A stretch of DNA of 64,000 bases from Bacteroides sp. (lineage in GTDB: Bacteria > Bacteroidota > Bacteroidia > Bacteroidales > Bacteroidaceae), in NCBI GenBank assembly GCA_015060765.1, contig SUXW01000007.1, positions 89,639 to 153,638 on the forward strand, written 5' to 3'. The notes beneath the pieces were generated by a model. The model saw only the letters and a list, made by a program, of their open reading frames with translations, ran no database searches and was not told the origin of the DNA. How positions within the stretch are numbered: the stretch's first letter is position 1; each line of letters begins with the position of its first letter. The translations under genes and the position numbers were made by a program. Shown here piece by piece: positions 1 to 24,807 of this stretch.

Positions 1-3000
1 TGAAGCTGGATGTACCCAAAGCGGCACGAGTAATACCTTGCAGAATCTGAGTGGAAGTTGCAGGAACCGCATCGCGTACTTCAACCGGTTTCAAGTCACG
101 GCGTTTCAACATACTGTTTTCATCACGGAGCTTGCGGGCAGTTACAATCTGACCCGGTTGCAAGTTTTGAGAATCACCAGCATCCACAACCACTTTCTTA
201 CCCCAGATACGGTCGTTTTCTTCCATGAATTCCTGCTTGTCTACTACTTGAAGTTCCAAGAAACGGGTATCACCCGGTTCTACAACTTCAACCTTACGCA
301 TCATCTGACGTACAATAATTTCAAAGTGCTTATCGTTAATCTTCACACCCTGCAAACGATATACGTCCTGAACTTCGTTTACAATGTATTCCTGTACGGC
401 AGTAGGACCCTTAATAGCCAAGATATCGGCTGGAGTAACCGCACCGTCGGACAACGGAGTACCTGCACGTACATAGTCGTTTTCCTGTACCAGAATCTGC
501 TTGGACAAGTTCACCAAGTATTTCTTTACTTCACCACTCTTCGAAGTTACCACGATTTCGCGGTTACCACGTTTAATCTTACCCATGGTAATTTCACCGT
601 CGATTTCGGATACAACTGCCGGATTAGACGGATTACGTGCTTCGAACAACTCGGTCACACGTGGAAGACCACCGGTAATATCGCCTGCCTTACCAACGGC
701 ACGAGGTATCTTAACCAAAATATCACCAGTCTTAACTGTCTGACCATTTTCAATGACAACGTGTCCACCTACAGGGAAGTTGTATGTACGAATCAAGCTA
801 CCTTCTTCTGAAACAATATGTGCCGAAGGAACCTTGGTCTTATCCTTAGATTCAATGATAATGATTTCACGCAAGCCAGTAGCATCGTCCGATTCTACCT
901 TGTAAGTTACGTTCTCTATCATAGATTCAAATTCAATCTTACCGGCAGTTTCTGTAATGATAACAGCGTTGAATGGGTCCCATTTGGCAATCAGTTTGCC
1001 CTTTTCAACGATTTCACCATCGGAAGCATACAATTTGGCACCATAAGGAACGTTGTGAGTAGAAAGAACAATACCTGTATTGACATCGACGAAACGAGCT
1101 TCGGCCAAACGACCAACTACTACTTTCACAGCTTCACCGGTTTCATCTACCGTATCCACCGTACGCAATTCTTCGAATTCCAAACGTGAATTGTTCTTGG
1201 CAACGATACTTGCATTGGCTGCCATATTACCGGCAATACCCCCTGCGTGGAATGTACGAAGTGTCAACTGAGTACCCGGTTCACCGATAGACTGAGCAGC
1301 GATAACGCCCACAGCTTCACCCTTATGAACCATACGGCTGGTAGCCAAGTTACGTCCGTAACACTTAGCACAAACACCCTTCTTCGATTCACAAGTCAAT
1401 ACCGAACGGATTTCTACACTTTCAATCGGAGAATCTTCGATTTCCTGTGCAATGGCTTCTGTAATTTCTTCTCCACCAGCAACAATCAACTTACCTGTTG
1501 TTGGATGAATGATGTCGTGAACAGAAACACGGCCAAGGATACGTTCGTACAAGGTAGCAATTACTTCGTCGTTGTTCTTCAACGCTGTACAAACAAGACC
1601 ACGCAATGTACCACAGTCTTCTTCGTTGATAATCACATCATGCGATACGTCTACCAGACGACGAGTCAAATAACCGGCATCGGCTGTCTTCAAAGCGGTA
1701 TCCGCCAAACCCTTACGGGCACCGTGAGTAGAGATAAAGTACTCGAGCACGGACAAACCTTCCTTAAAGTTAGAAAGAATCGGGTTTTCAATAATCTGCG
1801 CACCTTCGGCACCCGCTTTTTGCGGCTTCGCCATCAAACCACGCATACCCGACAACTGACGAATCTGTTCTTTAGAACCACGGGCACCAGAATCAAGCAT
1901 CATGAATACAGAGTTGAATCCTTGGTCGTCGTTCTTAATGGTCTTATAAAGAATATCAGACAAATCGCTATTTACGTGAGTCCATGTATCGATAACCTGG
2001 TTGTAACGTTCGTTATCAGTGATGAAACCCATATTATAGTTCATCATGATCTGTTCGATTTCTTCGTTACCACGCTTCACCAGTTCTTCCTTTTCCTTCG
2101 GGATGATGATATCGCCCAAGTTGAACGACAAACCACCCTTAAATGCCATTTGGTAACCTAAATTCTTGATACCATCCAAGAATTCACAAGCACGGGCTAC
2201 ACCCACAGCCTTGATTACATCGCTGATGATATCGCGCAAAGACTTCTTCGAAATGATTGTATTCAAATATCCGACTTCAGCCGGAACGATTTCGTTAACG
2301 ATGACACGACCTACCGAAGTTTCCTTGATCATCTTGTCTACTATGTTACCGTTTTCGTCCAAGTCTTTTGCCACAACATTAATAATGGCATGAATATCTA
2401 CCTTACCTTCATTATAAGCAATCATAGCTTCTTCCGGTCCGTAGAATGTCAAACCTTCACCCTTGGCACCTTTTCTCAATTTGGTAATATAATACAAACC
2501 GAGTACCATATCCTGTGCTGGCACTGTAATAGGAGCGCCATTGGCCGGATTCAATATATTATGAGCCTGGAGCATCAACATCTGAGCTTCCAGAATTGCT
2601 TCATTACTCAAAGGCAAGTGAACCGCCATCTGGTCACCATCGAAGTCGGCATTGAACGCAGTACAGGCCAACGGATGCAACTGAATAGCCTTACCTTCAA
2701 TCATATGAGGTTGGAATGCCTGAATACCCAAACGGTGCAATGTCGGCGCACGGTTCAACAGAACTGGATGACCCTTCATTACATGTTCCAGAATATCCCA
2801 GATCACAGCTTCCTTGCGGTCAACAATCTTCTTGGCCGACTTAACAGTCTTTACGATACCACGTTCTATCAACTTACGGATAATGAACGGCTTGTAAAGT
2901 TCGGCAGCCATCAATTTCGGAATACCGCATTCGCCCATCTTCAATTCAGGACCTACAACGATTACCGAACGCGCAGAGTAGTCAACACGCTTACCCAACA

Positions 3001-4060
3001 AGTTCTGACGGAAACGACCTTGCTTACCTTTCAAGCTATCCGACAAAGACTTCAAAGGACGATTAGCATCTGTCTTTACTGCACTCGACTTACGTGAATT
3101 GTCGAACAAAGAATCGACTGCTTCCTGCAACATACGCTTTTCATTACGCAGAATCACTTCAGGAGCCTTGATTTCAATCAGTCTCTTCAAACGGTTGTTA
3201 CGGATAATCACACGACGATACAAATCATTCAAGTCGGAAGTAGCAAAACGGCCACCATCCAGAGGAACCAACGGACGCAATTCCGGAGGTGTAACAGGAA
3301 TGATACGCATAATCATCCATTCAGGCTTGTTGCGTCCACGTGAAGCACGGAACGATTCTACCACCTGCAAACGCTTCAAAGCTTCATTCTTACGTTGTTG
3401 TGAAGAATCCTTGCTGGCCTTATCACGCAATTCGTATGACAATGCATCCAAATCCAATTTAGCCAAAAGGTCATAAATAGCTTCTGCACCCATCTTGGCT
3501 ATGAACTTATTAGGATCTGTATCTTCCAAATATTGGTTATCCTTCGGGAGCTTGTCCATCAAGTCCAAATATTCTTCTTCAGACAACAAATCATATTCAT
3601 TTATGCCTTCTTCAGCAGCAGCTCCCGCTTGAATAACTACATAACGTTCATAATAAATGATAGCATCCAACTTTTTGGTAGGCAATCCCAACAAATAACC
3701 GATCTTATTCGGCAATGAACGGAAATACCAGATATGAGCTACAGGAACAACCAATTGAATGTGACCTGTACGTTCACGACGCACCTTCTTTTCAGTTACT
3801 TCTACACCACAACGATCGCAGACAATACCTTTGTAACGGATACGTTTATATTTACCACAATGGCATTCATAATCCTTTACTGGTCCGAAGATACGCTCGC
3901 AAAACAAACCATCGCGTTCAGGTTTGTAGGTACGGTAGTTGATTGTTTCAGGCTTCAACACCTCACCATACGAGTTTTCCAGGATTTCTTCAGGAGAAGC
4001 CAATCCGATGGAAATCTTCGAGAAACTACTCTTTATCTTTGTTTCTTTTCTAAAAGCCAT
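1..4060 (-). CDS. rpoC: RNA polymerase beta' subunit (3' end outside window)
   Basis: Largest catalytic subunit of RNA polymerase. The start codon is at 4058-4060 and the frame stays open to position 1, giving 1353 residues; the family in Bacteroidetes is a little over 1400 residues, so roughly the last 70 residues lie outside the window. The N-terminus reads [20 protein letters not shown] zinc-ribbon cysteine cluster (CHCG ... CDRCG) follows near residues 66-86. The catalytic Mg-binding NADFDGD motif lies at 2633-2653 (residues 470-476). It follows rpoB by 34 bases with no terminator between, so the two are cotranscribed as in nearly all bacteria. No frameshift or insertion was seen in the parts I read. 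The exact C-terminus cannot be given. Confidence 0.98.
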
Positions 4061-4094
4061 ACTTTCTTAATTATATTGTAAAGAGTTAATTTTA

Positions 4095-7000
4095 TTATTC
4101 TAAGTTCACACTCAATCCCAAACCTCTCAATTCATGGAGCAACACATTCAGAGATTCCGGAATTCCCGGTGTAGGCATAGCTTCACCTTTCACGATAGCT
4201 TCATAAGCCTTTGAACGTCCCACTACATCGTCCGACTTGATAGTAAGGATTTCCTGAAGAATATGCGCTGCACCAAATGCTTCCAGCGCCCAAACTTCCA
4301 TTTCTCCGAAACGCTGTCCACCGAACTGTGCCTTACCACCTAAAGGCTGCTGAGTAATCAATGAATACGGACCAATAGAACGGGCATGCATCTTGTCTTC
4401 CACCATGTGACCTAATTTCAACATGTATGTAACACCTACAGTAGCCGGTTGGTCAAACTGTTCACCGGTACCACCATCATACAAATATGTCTTACAATAA
4501 CGTGGTAATCCGGCTTTATCTGTCCATTCGTCCAAATCATCCAATGACGCACCGTCGAAAATTGGTGTCGCAAACTTAACGCCCAATTCTTTACCTGCAC
4601 GTCCCAATACAGCTTCAAAAATCTGACCGATGTTCATACGAGAAGGCACACCCAACGGATTTAATACGATATCTACTGGCGTACCATCAGCCAAGAACGG
4701 CATATCTTCCTGACGAACTACGCGAGATACGATACCCTTGTTACCGTGACGACCTGCCATCTTATCACCAACACCAATCTTACGTTTCTTTGCAATATAA
4801 ACTTTGGCCATTTGAATGATACCAGAAGGAAGTTCATCACCAATAGTAATGGCGAATTTCTTACGCTTCAGTTCTGCATCCAATTCCTTATATTTCTTCA
4901 AATAATTCATAACCAAGTCACGAATCATATCGTTCTTGTGTGCATCAGCAGTCCACTTGCTCAATTGGATAATGGTATAATCCAAACCTTCCAAATCGCG
5001 CTTAGTGAATTTAGCACCCTTGGCTATAACTTCTGTTCCCAAATAATCTTTTACACCCTGAGAAACCTTGCCATTTGTCAAAACCAACAATTTTTCCACC
5101 AAGATATCCTTCAATTTGGCAACTTTTTCTTCAAATTCTTCTGTCAACTTAGGCAGAAGAGCCTTATCAGCATTCTTCTCACTACGTGTTTTCATAACAC
5201 GAGAGAACAACTTCTTGTCAATTACAACACCTCTAAGAGAAGGTGAAGCCTTCAATGAAGCATCCTTCACATCTCCAGCCTTATCACCAAAGATAGCACG
5301 AAGCAATTTTTCTTCAGGAGAAGGATCGGATTCTCCCTTTGGAGTAATCTTACCGATCAGAATATCACCCGGTTCGATGCAAGCACCGATACGAACAATA
5401 CCGTTTTCATCCAAGTCCTTGGTAGCTTCTTCGCTGACATTCGGAATATCTGCTGTAAGTTCTTCCAAACCGCGCTTGGTTTCTCGAACTTCAAGAATAT
5501 ATTCATCTACGTGTACAGAAGTCAAGATATCTTCACGAACAACGCGTTCGTTCAACACGATAGCATCTTCGTAATTATATCCCTTCCATGGCATGTAGGC
5601 AACCAACAAGTTCTTACCTAAAGCCAATTCTCCATTCGCTGTAGAATAGCCTTCAGTCAAAATGTCGCCCTTCTTTACACGTTGTCCCTTTTCACAAATA
5701 GGGCGCAAGTCGATGGTCATGCTTTGATTGGTCTTACGGAATTTAGGCACTTCGTATTCCTTCAAAGCTGGTTCAAAGCTAACAAACTCTTCGTCCTCTG
5801 TTCTATCGTACAATACGCGAATAGTCGTTGCATCTACATATTCGATAGTACCATCTCCTTCGGCTGCAATTTGTGTACGTGAATCTTCCACCAACTGCTT
5901 TTCAATACCGGTACCTACAATAGGAGCTTCTGTACGAAGCAAAGGTACAGCCTGGCGCATCATGTTAGAACCCATCAATGCACGGTTGGCATCATCATGT
6001 TCCAAGAACGGAATCAAAGAAGCGGCAATGGAAGCAATCTGCTGAGGAGAAACGTCCATCAATTCCACTTGATCGGGAGTTACCAATGGATAATCAGCAT
6101 CACGACGAGCCTTTACTTTCGAACGGATGAATGTACCGTCTTCATTCAAAGGAGCATTACCTTGAGCAATAATCTTGTCTTCTTCTTCCTCTGCAGTCAA
6201 ATATTCAATACCTTCTGGAGATATATCCACTTTAGCATTGGCCACCTTACGGTAAGGAGTTGAGATAAAGCCAAGTTCGTTAATCTTTGCATAAACACAC
6301 AAGGAAGAAATCAAACCGATATTCGGACCTTCCGGTGTTTCAATTGGACATAAACGACCATAGTGAGTATAGTGTACGTCACGTACTTCGAAACCTGCAC
6401 GTTCACGAGACAAACCACCAGGGCCCAATGCAGACAAACGACGCTTGTGAGTAATTTCGGCCAACGGGTTGGTCTGGTCCATGAATTGAGACAAAGCATT
6501 GGTACCGAAGAATGAATTGATAACGGAAGAAATGGTCTTCGCATTAATCAAATCAATCGGAGTAAACACTTCGTTATCGCGTACATTCATACGTTCACGA
6601 ATAGTACGGGACATACGAGCCAAACCAATAGCAAACTGATTGGACAACTGTTCACCAACTGTACGAACACGACGGTTACTCAAGTGGTCAATATCATCCA
6701 CGTCAGCCTTTGAGTTGATCAATTCAATCAAATATTTGATAATTTCAATGATATCTTGTTTGGTCAGCACCTTGACATCCATATCGGTAGTCAGACCAAG
6801 TTTCTTATTAATTCGATAACGGCCTACTTCACCCAAATCGTATCTCTTTTCAGAGAAGAACAAGTTATTGATCACTTCACGTGCACTTGCATCATCGGCC
6901 GGGTCCGCATTGCGAAGTTGACGGTAAATATACAATACAGCTTCTTTTTCCGAGTTACTCGGGTCCTTTTGAAGTGTATTGAATATAATCGAATAATCGG

Positions 7001-7907
7001 AAGAAGTCGCTTCATCATTGTGAACCAAAATATTAGACACGCCCGATTCAACAATCAAATCAATATGTTCGGGAGCAATAATCGTTTCACGATCGATTAT
7101 CACTTCATGACGTTCGATGGTTACTACTTCACCAGTGTCTTCATCAACGAAATCTTCAGTCCATGCTTTCAAAACACGAGCTGCCAATTTACGTCCTACA
7201 ACCTTCTTAAGATTTGTTTTATTGACTTTTACGTCCTCTGCCAAGTTGAATATTTCGAGAATATCCTTATCATTCTCAAATCCTACAGCTCTCAAAAGAG
7301 TTGTTACAGGCAATTTCTTCTTACGGTCGATATACGCATACATCACATTATTGATGTCTGTTGCGAATTCAATCCATGAACCCTTGAAAGGGATAATACG
7401 TGCGGAATACAATTTGGTACCATTGGCATGGATGCTTTGGCCAAAGAAAACACCTGGTGAACGATGCAATTGAGAAACGATTACACGTTCTGCACCATTG
7501 ATAACAAAAGTTCCTTTAGGTGTCATATAAGGGATAGGGCCCAAATATACATCTTGAATTACTGTATCAAAATCCTCATGATCCGGATCGGTACAATAAA
7601 GTTTCAACTTAGCCTTCAAAGGAACGCTATAAGTCAACCCGCGTTCCAAACAATCATCGATGGTATAATGAGGCGGGTCAATGTAATAGTCCAAAAATTC
7701 AAGAACGAAATTGTTACGAGTATCTGCAATAGGAAAATTTTCTGCAAACACTTTGTACAAGCCATCATTCTTACGTTTTTCGGGAGGAGTATCCAGTTGT
7801 AAAAAGTCCTGGAAAGACTTCAATTGCACTTCCAAGAAATCCGGATACTGCATCGGATTCTTGATGGAAGCAAAACTAATTCTTTGATTTTCAGTATTTG
7901 AAGACAT
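4095..7907 (-). CDS. rpoB: RNA polymerase beta subunit
   Basis: Second-largest RNA polymerase subunit, 1270 residues, the usual size for Bacteroidetes. It begins [18 protein letters not shown] and ends GLGLSVNLE. The rifampicin-pocket region is recognisable around residues 470-520 ([19 protein letters not shown], then [20 protein letters not shown]). The conserved C-terminal segment with [15 protein letters not shown] is also present. With rpoC it forms the catalytic cleft and binds sigma, NusG and Gre factors, two of which are encoded in this window. It sits between rplL, 99 bases upstream across a terminator-like hairpin, and rpoC. Production is therefore probably tuned by partial readthrough from the ribosomal genes. 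Confidence 0.99.
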
Positions 7908-21580: not shown

Positions 21581-21588
21581 TACCTTTG
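21581..21588 (+). promoter_or_regulatory. -7 element of the PqqD-ABC-HprK-S26 cassette
   Basis: TACCTTTG matches TAnnTTTG exactly and lies 25 bases before the PqqD-like start. It follows the HD-protein stop by 39 bases, so the cassette is probably transcribed on its own. No convincing -33 TTTG was found. Confidence 0.65.
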
Positions 21589-21613
21589 CATACCAATTAA
21601 AAATCAATGAATC

Positions 21614-21883
21614 ATGAAAATCAAATCCAATTATAAACTACGTGAAATAGCAGGAGAAAATGTGATAATCAATCAAGGAATTACTGAAGCAAACCTGACA
21701 AGCATTATTTCCTTGAATACATCAGCTAAGTTGATGTGGGAAAAATTGATTAATCAAGAATTCAATTTAGAACAAGCTGCCCAAGTTTTGGTTGATACTT
21801 ACGGCATCGCCCCAGAACAAGCAATGAAGGATGCCGGGAATTGGGTAGAAGCTTTGAAAAAGTGCAATATCCTGAGCGATTAA
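21614..21883 (+). CDS. PqqD-like peptide-chaperone protein
   Basis: Small protein of 89 residues resembling PqqD/RRE proteins, which bind leader peptides of ribosomally made, modified peptides. Visible family features are an N-terminal beta-rich stretch (YKLREIAGENVIINQG), the LNTSAKLMWEKLI core with its conserved tryptophan, and a C-terminal helical half ending in ALKKCNILSD. It is followed after 7 bases by an ABC exporter, then a kinase-like protein and a signal-peptidase-like protein. This set recalls lasso-peptide and related clusters (family knowledge). No precursor is evident nearby. It could instead act as a regulatory partner for the ABC protein. Confidence 0.85.
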   Translation: MKIKSNYKLREIAGENVIINQGITEANLTSIISLNTSAKLMWEKLINQEFNLEQAAQVLVDTYGIAPEQAMKDAGNWVEALKKCNILSD

Positions 21884-21890
21884 AAGAGGA

Positions 21891-23516
21891 ATGGTCAAAA
21901 GGATTCTAAACCTTCTAATAGCCGAAGAAAAGAGAAAAGGGTTATGGGTAGCTGGCAGCATATTCCTGTCGGCGATTATAGACTTTATAGGATTGGCGAC
22001 TTTGATGCCAGTCCTATACTTTCTACTCGATGGAGGAGAGCAACGGAAAGCAGCACTTTGGTTTTGTCTATTGGCTATTGTTGTAGTAATAATTAAAAGT
22101 ATATTAAGTACTCTTTTTTCTCGCTACCAACAGAAATTCCTATTGGAGCTATACAAACGTTTGAGTTTCTCGCTCTTCACCGCTTACTACCGCCGGGGGC
22201 TCCTCTTTATACGAGAACAAGGTATTAATCGTTTAGGATATGAAGTGAATTTCGTTTGCTATGCATTCAGTCTGAATATACTAGCTCCTTTATTACGTAT
22301 TGTCGGCGATTGCCTGCTTATGGTAATGGTCATGGTTGCCCTACTTATATACGATTGGTATACAGCTTTAATCTTATTTGTATCGTTCCTCCCTTTCATA
22401 TTGTTATATACTTTTAGCATACGAAAACACGCTCGTGAATTCGGACGGCAAGAATTAGAAGCAAGAAGAAAACAGACAAGGGTAGTAACCGATACTTTTG
22501 GTGGATTTGCCGAATTGGAGGTGAACGATGCTTTCTACAATATGAAAGAATATTTCAAAGAAGGCTTGGAACAGATTACAAACAACCGAATGAAAATGGA
22601 GACCATGGCAAGAATTCCAATGCTCCTTTCCGAATTATCAGCTATTACAGGGCTGACTTGGATGACTATGACTGGTACCGGAGATATTAAAATGTTGATA
22701 GGAATTTTTGCTATAGCTGCTTTCAGATTATTGCCTGCTCTTCGTGGTATTCTATCAGGATGGACCTTAATACAAAACAATGCCAGCAACTTACAAATCA
22801 TAGAAGAAGGACTAAAAGATGACAATAAGACACCCGAGACTGCAGGCACATTGGATTTCGAAAAAGAGCTTTCCGTAATCGATTTATGCTACAAATACGG
22901 TGAAGGAGAAATGATTCTGGAACACTTTTCATGTAAAATCGGGAAAGGAGAATATATCGGTTTTCAAGGATATAGTGGAGCCGGGAAATCGACATTATTT
23001 AATTTGTTGTTAGGGTTCCTCACGCCCCAAAGTGGAGAAATCAGAATAGACCACACCAAACTCACTGCCGACATACAAGCGAAATGGTTGAGAAAAACAG
23101 GATATGTACAACAGAATGTATACATATTTCAGGGTTCTCTTGCTGAAAATATCGCTTTAGGATGTAAAGATATAGATAAAGAAAAAATTAATCGAATTTT
23201 AAAGCAAGTCTGCTTATACGATTGGGTACAGACTTTGTCCAAAGGAATGGAAACATCCTTGGGAGAATTTGGGAATAAAATTTCAGGAGGGCAAAAACAA
23301 CGTATTGGAATAGCCCGTGCTTTATATAAAGAAGCGGAAATCATCTTGTTGGACGAGGCTACTTCTGCACTCGACAACGAAACAGAAAAAGAAATAAACA
23401 ATATGTTGGCCTCTTTGAGAAAAACTTATATAGGGCTGACTATTCTTTCAATAGCCCATCGCGAAAGTTCATTATCGTACTGCGACCGTATCATAAACGT
23501 CAATCAAGAATCATGA
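21891..23516 (+). CDS. ABC transporter, fused permease and ATPase
   Basis: Half-size exporter of 541 residues. A six-helix membrane domain occupies about residues 15-300. The nucleotide-binding domain follows with Walker A GYSGAGKST (near 360), signature ISGGQKQRIGIARAL (near 465), Walker B IILLDEATSALD (near 485) and the switch histidine in SIAHRES. The signature begins ISGGQ in place of the usual LSGGQ. No N-terminal peptidase (C39) domain is present, so leader removal would need another enzyme, perhaps the S26-like protein downstream. It overlaps the next gene by 4 bases, implying translational coupling. Peptide export is the likely role; lipid or drug export remains possible. Confidence 0.9.
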   Translation: MVKRILNLLIAEEKRKGLWVAGSIFLSAIIDFIGLATLMPVLYFLLDGGEQRKAALWFCLLAIVVVIIKSILSTLFSRYQQKFLLELYKRLSFSLFTAYYRRGLLFIREQGINRLGYEVNFVCYAFSLNILAPLLRIVGDCLLMVMVMVALLIYDWYTALILFVSFLPFILLYTFSIRKHAREFGRQELEARRKQTRVVTDTFGGFAELEVNDAFYNMKEYFKEGLEQITNNRMKMETMARIPMLLSELSAITGLTWMTMTGTGDIKMLIGIFAIAAFRLLPALRGILSGWTLIQNNASNLQIIEEGLKDDNKTPETAGTLDFEKELSVIDLCYKYGEGEMILEHFSCKIGKGEYIGFQGYSGAGKSTLFNLLLGFLTPQSGEIRIDHTKLTADIQAKWLRKTGYVQQNVYIFQGSLAENIALGCKDIDKEKINRILKQVCLYDWVQTLSKGMETSLGEFGNKISGGQKQRIGIARALYKEAEIILLDEATSALDNETEKEINNMLASLRKTYIGLTILSIAHRESSLSYCDRIINVNQES

Positions 23517-24361
23517 AACAATATTACAACATAGCTGGACATAAATTGAGCATATCATCCCCTATCTGTGAAGCTCTGAAAAGACTTCCCGGGTTCCAAC
23601 CTTTTCGAATTGAAAAAACCGATATCGATTTCAACTTTTCTGAAGGCAAAGAAATGGATATCCCTTTATTTGCCAAAGAATTGTATACTTTGGAATTCGA
23701 AGATGTAAAAGGTGCTTTCGGAACCACAACAGGAGGCTACCTCATGTGTCTGACACCCGAAGGAAAAGACTGTTTGTACCTATGGACCAACATAACAAAT
23801 AGAACGGTATACTTATACGGTAATTATGAGCCCTATTTGTTACGTTATGCTATATGGGTTGGATATGGTATCATGACCGTACACCATCATACACTTGCCA
23901 TCCATACTAGTTGCATCGTATACCATGACAAGGCTGTCCTGTTTTTAGGAGAAAGTGGTACAGGAAAGAGTACACATACCCGTTTGTGGCAAGAGCATAT
24001 ATCAGGAGCTGTATTGCTTAACGATGACAGTCCTATCATCCGAATAGAGAACGAAAAAATATGGGCATATGGAAGTCCGTGGAGTGGAAAAACGCCTTGT
24101 TATAAAAACGAACGATACGAACTGCAAGGATGCGTACGCCTATCACAGGCGCCTTACAACCAAATCCAAAAGCTCACGATACTCCAATCCATTGGAGCCT
24201 TACATCCTTCTTGTGCGCCACAATTTGCATACGATGAAAATCTATACAATGGAGTAAGCCACACTTTGGATGGTATTTTGTCAGCCATACCTTGTTATCA
24301 CTTGGCTTGTTTGCCCAACAAAGAAGCTGCTTTATTATCATGCAAGACTTTGTTTGTATGA
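23513..24361 (+). CDS. HPr kinase/phosphorylase-like protein of peptide clusters
   Basis: 282 residues. The C-terminal half resembles HprK: a P-loop GESGTGKST near residue 148, then LLNDDSPIIRIENEKIW and the GSPWSGKTPCYKNE segment. The N-terminal DRTGG domain of true HPr kinases is not apparent. Such stand-alone relatives occur beside PqqD and ABC genes in lasso-peptide-type loci, where one characterised member phosphorylates the precursor peptide (established for paeninodin). The start overlaps the ABC stop by 4 bases and the stop overlaps the next start (ATGA), so the genes are tightly coupled. Substrate here is unknown. Confidence 0.82.
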   Translation: MKQYYNIAGHKLSISSPICEALKRLPGFQPFRIEKTDIDFNFSEGKEMDIPLFAKELYTLEFEDVKGAFGTTTGGYLMCLTPEGKDCLYLWTNITNRTVYLYGNYEPYLLRYAIWVGYGIMTVHHHTLAIHTSCIVYHDKAVLFLGESGTGKSTHTRLWQEHISGAVLLNDDSPIIRIENEKIWAYGSPWSGKTPCYKNERYELQGCVRLSQAPYNQIQKLTILQSIGALHPSCAPQFAYDENLYNGVSHTLDGILSAIPCYHLACLPNKEAALLSCKTLFV

Positions 24362-24807
24362 AAAAAAAAGTCCTTCAAAATTCATTTTTAACAGAAGCCG
24401 CTACCTTATTGAAGGAAGGAAAGTCGGTCCGTATCCGTATAAACGGAGAGAGCATGTTTCCTTTCATCCGAGGAGGAAAAGATATAGTGGAAATCATTCC
24501 CTATCATTTAAAAGATCCATTGAAAAAGTGGTGCTGCACCTTTTACGAATGGAACGGACACTATATGATACATCGGTATATTGGTAGTAACATGGAAAAA
24601 TGCAGAATGATGGGTGATGGAAATCTAGCACAAGTAGAAGAAGTGAATAGGTATGAAATCATAGGTATATTAAAGGCTATTTACCATCCAGACGGAAGCA
24701 TACAGGAATGCAATGACCCACAATGGTTGCGTAAAGCAGAATACTGGTATCGATTACGGAAACTGCGCCGTTTCCTGATCCCATTGATGAAAAGATTCAT
24801 CAAATAA
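24358..24807 (+). CDS. S26 (SipW-type) signal-peptidase-like protein
   Basis: 149 residues if it starts at the ATG overlapping the upstream stop (ATGA); a longer in-frame start exists but would overlap the kinase gene by 70 bases. It carries signal-peptidase box B as NGESMFPFI with probable nucleophile S32. Box D is YMIHRYIG with H72 where lysine stands in bacterial type I enzymes, and box E is MMGDGN (residues 84-89). A Ser/His dyad marks the ER/SipW branch (S26B). There is no clear transmembrane helix, only a basic C-terminal tail (RLRKLRRFLIPLMKRFIK), so it may be peripheral. It could process the peptide exported by the neighbouring ABC protein (inference). Confidence 0.78.
   Translation: MKKKVLQNSFLTEAATLLKEGKSVRIRINGESMFPFIRGGKDIVEIIPYHLKDPLKKWCCTFYEWNGHYMIHRYIGSNMEKCRMMGDGNLAQVEEVNRYEIIGILKAIYHPDGSIQECNDPQWLRKAEYWYRLRKLRRFLIPLMKRFIK

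Follow-up and report, generated by a model that had tools for sequence, protein, structure and literature searches.

A compact PqqD, ABC exporter, HprK-like and S26-like gene cassette in Bacteroides and its candidate precursor peptides

The cassette and its proteins

This report concerns a 64,000-nucleotide (nt) stretch of a Bacteroides sp. genome (assembly GCA_015060765.1, contig SUXW01000007.1, positions 89,639 to 153,638), referred to here as the window, in which a compact cassette encodes a PqqD-like protein, an ATP-binding cassette (ABC) exporter, an HPr-kinase-like protein and an S26 signal-peptidase-like protein (Table 1). An original prediction, made from the letters of the window, described these as four coupled genes with spacings of 7, -4 and -4 bases that might act on a peptide encoded elsewhere. 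They are indeed four open reading frames (ORFs) on the same strand, with 7 nt between the first two and an overlap of 4 nt at each of the next two junctions. The S26-like gene most likely starts at the ATG at 24358, and the box ahead of the cassette fits TAnnTTTG, the Bacteroides -7 consensus.

Table 1. Features of the cassette in the window and of the single-run locus L011 of a relative (aa, amino acids; ORF coordinates in each piece's own numbering)
Sequence	Feature	Coordinates	Strand	Basis
Window	Promoter-like box, candidate	21581..21588	+	TACCTTTG; read from sequence
Window	PqqD-like protein, 89 aa, predicted leader-binding component	21614..21883	+	PF05402, E 1.7e-8, above Pfam cut-off
Window	ABC exporter, 541 aa	21891..23516	+	ABC_tran 2.5e-30, ABC_membrane 3.4e-7
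Window	HprK/PEPCK-fold kinase-like protein, 282 aa	23513..24361	+	Weak profiles; structure-model matches; invariant GESGTGKST and NDDSP
Window	S26/LexA-fold Ser/His peptidase-like protein, 149 aa	24358..24807	+	Structure-model matches; invariant S32 and H72
L011	Peptide	214-318		
L011	PqqD	533-802		
L011	Kinase	806-1681		
L011	Nucleotidyltransferase	1692-2801		
L011	ABC	2812-4455		
L011	S26	4459-4914		

The first two assignments stand as they were first made. The supposed leader-binding protein matches the PqqD family above the Pfam cut-off, and the exporter, said to lack its own peptidase, matches both ABC domains with no C39 peptidase domain found in it (Pfam, E up to 1), so that it does not classify as a peptidase-containing ABC transporter.

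The HPr-kinase-like and S26 folds that had been proposed for the other two proteins are supported by predicted structures and very little by profile searches; the refutation of these folds that the original prediction had set out did not come about in the material examined. The Pfam profile of the kinase is weak (Hpr_kinase_C, E 0.21), and its likeness to the HPr-rel-A system consists of a weak similarity to HprK-related kinase A (NCBIfam TIGR04352, E 9.6e-5), which at 21.6 bits against a cut-off of 200 does not make it a member. Its predicted structure (predicted local distance difference test score, pLDDT, 94.3) best matches, among solved structures, phosphoenolpyruvate carboxykinase (PEPCK; 1oen, E 1.8e-7), followed by HprK/P (1knx, E 3.2e-5; also 1kkl and 3tqf), and the P-loop GESGTGKST and the motif NDDSP are unchanged across 26 aligned relatives. 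The model places the protein in the HprK/PEPCK fold with a P-loop, and kinase activity is predicted.

No S24/S26 match was obtained for the fourth protein in Pfam or NCBIfam (E up to 1). Its predicted structure (pLDDT 89.7) matches the C-terminal domain of LexA (6a2r, E 5.6e-4) and the signal peptidase SpsB (4wvg, E 7.5e-4), then more weakly human signal peptidase and SipA (4n31, E 4.2e-3, TM-score about 0.5); the TM-scores by model length are modest, at 0.24-0.53 among the matches listed. SipA, a Streptococcus pyogenes signal peptidase homologue reported as required for the polymerisation of pili, is alike in fold but differs in the weakness of the match and in belonging to another phylum with other substrates. 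Residues G30, S32, M33, P35, D42, H72, R73, G86, D87 and E94 are invariant in 20 aligned relatives; S32, H72-R73 and G86-D87 presumably form the catalytic boxes. The model indicates a signal peptidase/LexA fold with a Ser box and a basic residue, and peptidase activity is predicted. Searching the solved structures by sequence with either protein returned chance-level matches only.

The same genes recur together in relatives. Kinase relatives make up 7747 of 8000 proteins scored and occur in 164 of the 201 genomes examined from the window's family. Thirteen of the 201 carry a kinase of the window type, at 50-100% identity, and the other relatives listed are 32-48% identical. Among 79 loci fetched by their kinase, BLAST located an S26-like ORF in 72, an ABC relative in 67 and a PqqD relative in 42, counting matches anywhere in the fetched piece, some of which end at contig ends. 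This co-occurrence is beyond chance.

Candidate precursor peptides and their tie to the cassette

The search through relatives for the cassette and for remote precursors that the original prediction had called for yielded a family of short peptides. A pattern scan of small ORFs in cassette loci gave 50 rows, 19 of which were kept by eye to form alignment A2 (L129 and L007 have the same peptide, which was entered a single time); the window's own genome contributed none. These peptides share Y.aPxvEvxEvxvEkGFAxS followed by a variable tail. Applied to the window's own genome, the A2 model identified 15 members spread over 10 contigs, with E values from 1.8e-15 to 1.9e-6, and none in the window, which upholds the claim of a peptide encoded elsewhere. 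In reverse, a model built from these 15 own peptides only found 28 matches, one of them partly masked, when run over the 79 cassette loci (1.31 Mb), 25 of which were matched; shuffled sequence, the window and the nucleotidyltransferase locus described below gave none. Because cassette peptides of relatives led to the 15 own members and the reverse model leads back to cassette loci, the own peptides are regarded as likely substrates of the cassette. The other suggestion, that the PqqD-like protein is itself a substrate, is not supported: nothing found points there, though no direct test was made of it.

The own peptides are 36-49 aa long and share Y.APxVEVIEVEVEKGFAxS and a hypervariable acidic tail of 8-17 aa with a net charge of -1 to -5. 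M1, Y9, P12, E22, G24 and S28 (numbering of the first peptide) are shared by the 15 without exception; the conserved Ser is the sole Ser/Thr of the peptide in three, and the tail is free of Ser/Thr in five. Over the 20-codon block ending at this Ser, comparison in pairs gives 432, 386 and 1179 differences of 2100 at the first, second and third codon position, the pattern expected where a sequence is translated and constrained at the protein level. All 15 own peptides show the conserved and variable halves expected of a precursor, the former being inferred to be a leader and the latter a core. In databases, 6767 of 7999 scored candidates match the peptide profile, and no Pfam domain was found in the 120 candidates listed. 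Related peptides in genomes G146 and G188 (L161-L174) often end in a W..IW-like tail.

The association of peptide and cassette was examined mainly with the own-genome model (E up to 1e-3) in the 200 other genomes of the family. The model matches 11 of 12 genomes with a window-type kinase and 10 of the 188 others (Fisher 1e-11), and the peptide lies at most 10 kb from the kinase in 7 of the 11, with 0.26 expected (P 6e-10), both P values being inflated by related genomes; without G080, a near twin of G062, the proximity count is 6 of 10. All 21 matched genomes fall among the 163 with some kinase relative, and none among the 37 without one.

Two further models were also applied. With A2, at a threshold of at least 40 bits that was picked after the listing had been seen, the association was 12/13 versus 3/188; at E 1e-3 it was 12/13 versus 52/188 (p 5e-6), a test since replaced by that of the own-genome model. 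A degree of circularity enters the A2 test, since a number of its rows derive from members of the 201 (L004, L007 and L019 are pieces of G165, G062 and G123, and L126, L129 and L130 come from G140, G080 and G149) and the removal of seed genomes was incomplete. The broad model A8 (25 peptides) likewise includes rows from the 201 genomes together with L079, and its matches in 144 of the 201 genomes, comprising 138 of the 164 that have a kinase relative and 6 of the 37 that lack one, are therefore partly circular and supporting only. Across the order, A8 matched 7 of 149 genomes, the window's own included. In Alistipes/Rikenellaceae it matched 12 of 12 genomes, 1-11 times each (counting matches of E 0.01 or better, the best in each genome being 2.4e-4 or better), all 12 bearing the cassette and chosen for their kinase, and one of them (G358) having supplied a model row that is its sole match; five of the six readable peptide loci from this group carry the peptide and then a lipoprotein-like gene, L187 being the other. 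One cassette of G149 has nine peptide genes around it, all inside a 51-kb span (contig 1, 1797300-1848322). Taken together, the link between the peptides and the cassette as its substrates is well supported.

Partner genes, a nucleotidyltransferase and polysaccharide loci

Thirteen of the 15 own peptides directly precede a same-strand ORF of 283-1325 aa, which starts from 17 nt before to 45 nt after the peptide stop. These partners were called lipoprotein-like from their N-termini, 11 being lipobox-like by script and that of C40a by reading (12 of 13); the start of the C30a partner looks disrupted. The C22b peptide lies 280 nt from a contig end. The C7 peptide, the most divergent of the own set (tail CCADESNS), is followed by a second S26 gene that overlaps it (L148: peptide 6807-6917, S26-like 6901-7335), whose product is 27% identical to that of the window and 52-60% identical to the cassette S26 proteins of L003, L009 and L026. 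In the cassette loci, 22 of 27 unmasked peptides have a lipobox-like ORF of at least 150 aa within 120 nt; random anchors in the window had such an ORF in 37 of 3000 cases, under a stricter rule (60 nt, 250 aa). Domain searches of ten own partners returned Mfa_like_1 in two, LRR_5 in two, M64 in two, GLUG in one, DUF285 in one and none in five. The two Mfa_like_1 matches score 33.2 bits (cut-off 27) and 25.1 bits (below it), so a fimbrillin-like nature is supported in 2 of the 10 scanned. The partners at L158 and L159 (own C6 and C39) match the M64 IgA peptidase family.

That own peptides directly precede lipoprotein-like ORFs would also suit short ORFs that are translated leaders regulating the downstream lipoprotein genes and unrelated to the cassette. 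This explanation is disfavoured and appears quite improbable: several peptides of G146 and G188 instead stand directly downstream of a secreted-looking partner gene; the peptide precedes PqqD in L011 and L032, and that of C7 precedes its S26 gene; and the peptides track the kinase across genomes and show, in their codon-position differences, constraint at the level of the protein.

A fifth gene, encoding about 370 aa, is found in 32 of 110 loci, in many of these between PqqD and the ABC gene. Its copy in L002 belongs to PF14907 (NTP_transf_5, E 5.8e-41), a nucleotidyltransferase family, and GDID is unchanged in ten aligned copies. The window is without such a gene; its genome has one match (contig 1, 160472-161230), 60% identical to the L002 protein, with no precursor peptide found beside it or in the window. 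As far as genes could be recognised, it closes a polysaccharide run (L132, own genome C1, 1-10471) that comprises a PF02350 epimerase, a PF00953 transferase, a DUF6016/cupin gene and a YjbH-like gene. Glycan and peptide systems may be linked here. The fifth enzyme, the 15 candidate precursors and their pairing with lipoprotein-like genes escaped the original prediction because they lie outside the window.

The position of this gene at the end of a polysaccharide run raises the question of whether the enzymes serve polysaccharide assembly, by phosphate and nucleotidyl transfer to a glycan or carrier, with the peptides as neighbours or regulators. Six loci speak in its favour (L111, L123, L124, L126, L127 and L128), in which the nucleotidyltransferase and kinase, with PqqD where called (among the five other than L123, only in L111, L124 and L126), stand beside Wza/Wzc-like genes; Pfam confirmed Wza and Wzc in L111 and Wzc in L126, the other calls being by resemblance. 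Yet each of these six also carries, after a Wzc-like or nucleotidyltransferase-like gene, a peptide and a lipoprotein-like gene (in L127 with one gene between them): L123 reads Wza-like, Wzc-like, nucleotidyltransferase, peptide, lipoprotein-like gene, PqqD, kinase, S26, ABC, and in the other five the pair follows the Wzc-like gene. Moreover, many window-type cassettes have no adjoining polysaccharide genes, and PqqD-like proteins are known as peptide binders (PMC7533575). A role in polysaccharide assembly is considered improbable.

All components come together in compact loci of relatives. L011 holds them in a single run (Table 1), L032 has all six in the order peptide, PqqD, nucleotidyltransferase, ABC, kinase, S26, and L026 reads peptide, lipoprotein-like gene, PqqD, nucleotidyltransferase, ABC, kinase, S26; L004 is arranged as L026, without S26 in the fetched piece.

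Several observations concern the wider setting of the cassette. In Phocaeicola sartorii (L045, 8360-10920) the ABC and kinase genes are each split over two ORFs, through decay or sequencing error. The ABC, kinase and S26 genes of Alistipes-group loci (L040, L044, L048 and others) adjoin housekeeping genes (ispF-like and uvrD-like, by resemblance), and PqqD was not found in the fetched pieces of these loci. Some kinase relatives (P0013, P0020 and others) bear a precomputed Pfam label, PF27840.1, and a Pfam search of P0013 gave no such match. The neighbours of the cassette in the window are ordinary-looking, being a 7TM-HD hydrolase gene upstream and, downstream on the opposite strand, a low-molecular-weight phosphatase gene. 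No plasmid match of the cassette and no viral contigs were found.

A proposed pathway and its relation to lasso peptides

One close known parallel is provided by the phosphorylated and phosphoglycosylated lasso peptides (paeninodin and pseudomycoidin; genes A, B1, B2, C, D, K and N), in which a PqqD-like B1, an exporter D, a kinase K and a nucleotidyltransferase N likewise occur together. According to PMC7533575 and PMC8498205, B1 binds the leader; PMC8498205 reports that K phosphorylates the C-terminal Ser with little regard to the rest of the peptide and that the N of pseudomycoidin adds hexoses to the phosphate, so that K and N together produce phosphoglycosyl-Ser. The K and N chemistry proposed below is modelled on these activities.

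The presence of a lasso-type B1 and exporter D, along with K and N homologues, could mark a decayed or split lasso cluster with B2 and C elsewhere. The original prediction had noted the lack of the B2 protease and the cyclase, and this held across the assembly (84% complete): there was no match to Transglut_core3 (PF13471) and no convincing Asn_synthase (PF00733), only three partial matches of 20.7-22.8 bits in ORFs of 355-438 aa. In relatives, no constant linkage to a lasso B2/C pair was borne out in what was looked at, and neither B2 nor C was spotted among the listed neighbours, on which no scan aimed at these genes was run. A lasso remnant is thus disfavoured and very unlikely. The window's system also differs in having an S26-fold peptidase in place of B2 and a cyclase, and its genome's candidate precursors are unrelated to those of lasso peptides, dispersed and mostly paired with lipoprotein-like genes. 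It is similar in working to the pathways of ribosomally synthesized and post-translationally modified peptides (RiPPs), and it is not a lasso pathway, neither B2 nor a convincing cyclase having been found. The RiPP clusters of Bacteroidales described in PMC10352776 share the order of bacteria and the logic of precursor and exporter; these have radical SAM, LanC, YcaO or LanM enzymes and mostly C39 exporters, whereas the cassette has neither these enzymes nor C39, and no GG-type leader is described for the present peptides. No published account of this gene set was recognised in a literature search, most subscription papers and preprints lying outside its coverage, and this peptide system of gut bacteria may be previously undescribed.

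The cassette is probably a single maturation and export machine for precursors of 36-49 aa encoded at 15 other sites in the genome, mostly just ahead of genes for predicted surface lipoproteins. By analogy with known systems, the PqqD-like protein would take up the conserved leader (YxAPxVEVIEVEVEKGF) in the form of an extra beta strand, and the conserved Ser at the leader end (GFAxS) would receive a phosphate from the HprK/PEPCK-fold kinase. The PF14907 nucleotidyltransferase, encoded on another contig, could then attach a sugar or a nucleotidyl moiety to this phosphate, in the way that its pseudomycoidin counterpart reportedly adds hexoses. Cleavage next to the Ser would fall to the S26-like peptidase and export of the variable tail to the ABC protein, and this tail may act with the co-encoded lipoprotein at the cell surface.

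Alternatively, the leader half could be the product, the S26-like peptidase cutting after the conserved Ser, the kinase and nucleotidyltransferase modifying what would now be a C-terminal Ser, and the tail being discarded. Conservation lies in the half that precedes the Ser, and AxS resembles a signal-peptidase site, by the rule for such sites, with Ser at position -1. In lasso systems, moreover, K recognises and N adds hexoses at a C-terminal Ser (PMC8498205). A hypervariable region after a conserved one is nevertheless the usual pattern of leader and core, and near-identical duplicates diverge mainly in the tail: the two C22 peptides share an identical leader and diverge in the tail, and the C30 pair has a single residue difference before the Ser. 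A product derived from the leader half is considered unlikely.

Besides the inflated P values, several points weigh against a single machine acting on these peptides. Genome G138 has a window-type kinase yet no match to the own-genome model, A8 leaves 26 of 164 kinase genomes without a peptide match and finds one in 6 of 37 kinase-less genomes, and the own assembly is incomplete. By BLAST, 37 of the 79 kinase loci are without PqqD in the fetched piece. The conserved Ser is replaced by Thr in L025 and L037, and the motif is altered in L180. The S26-like protein has no transmembrane segment evident on reading, which bears on its site of action, and lasso kinases are reported in PMC8498205 to act on a C-terminal Ser, whereas the conserved Ser here is internal.

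A broader and more tentative possibility, regarded as doubtful at present, is that Bacteroidales make a novel class of phospho- or phosphoglyco-peptides, in which one leader-reading machine of PqqD, kinase, nucleotidyltransferase, S26 peptidase and ABC exporter would serve hypervariable peptides encoded across the genome, each with its own surface lipoprotein. The exported and phosphoglycosylated tail might then be that lipoprotein's ligand, switch or glycan anchor, so that a single cassette would control a diversified surface repertoire. If the proposed pathway is true, thousands of unannotated short genes of gut Bacteroidales would encode precursors for a single pathway, and substrates would be assigned to an orphan enzyme set with kinase relatives in 164 of 201 genomes of the family. 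Peptide maturation would, in that case, be connected with surface lipoproteins and, at certain loci, with the export of polysaccharides.

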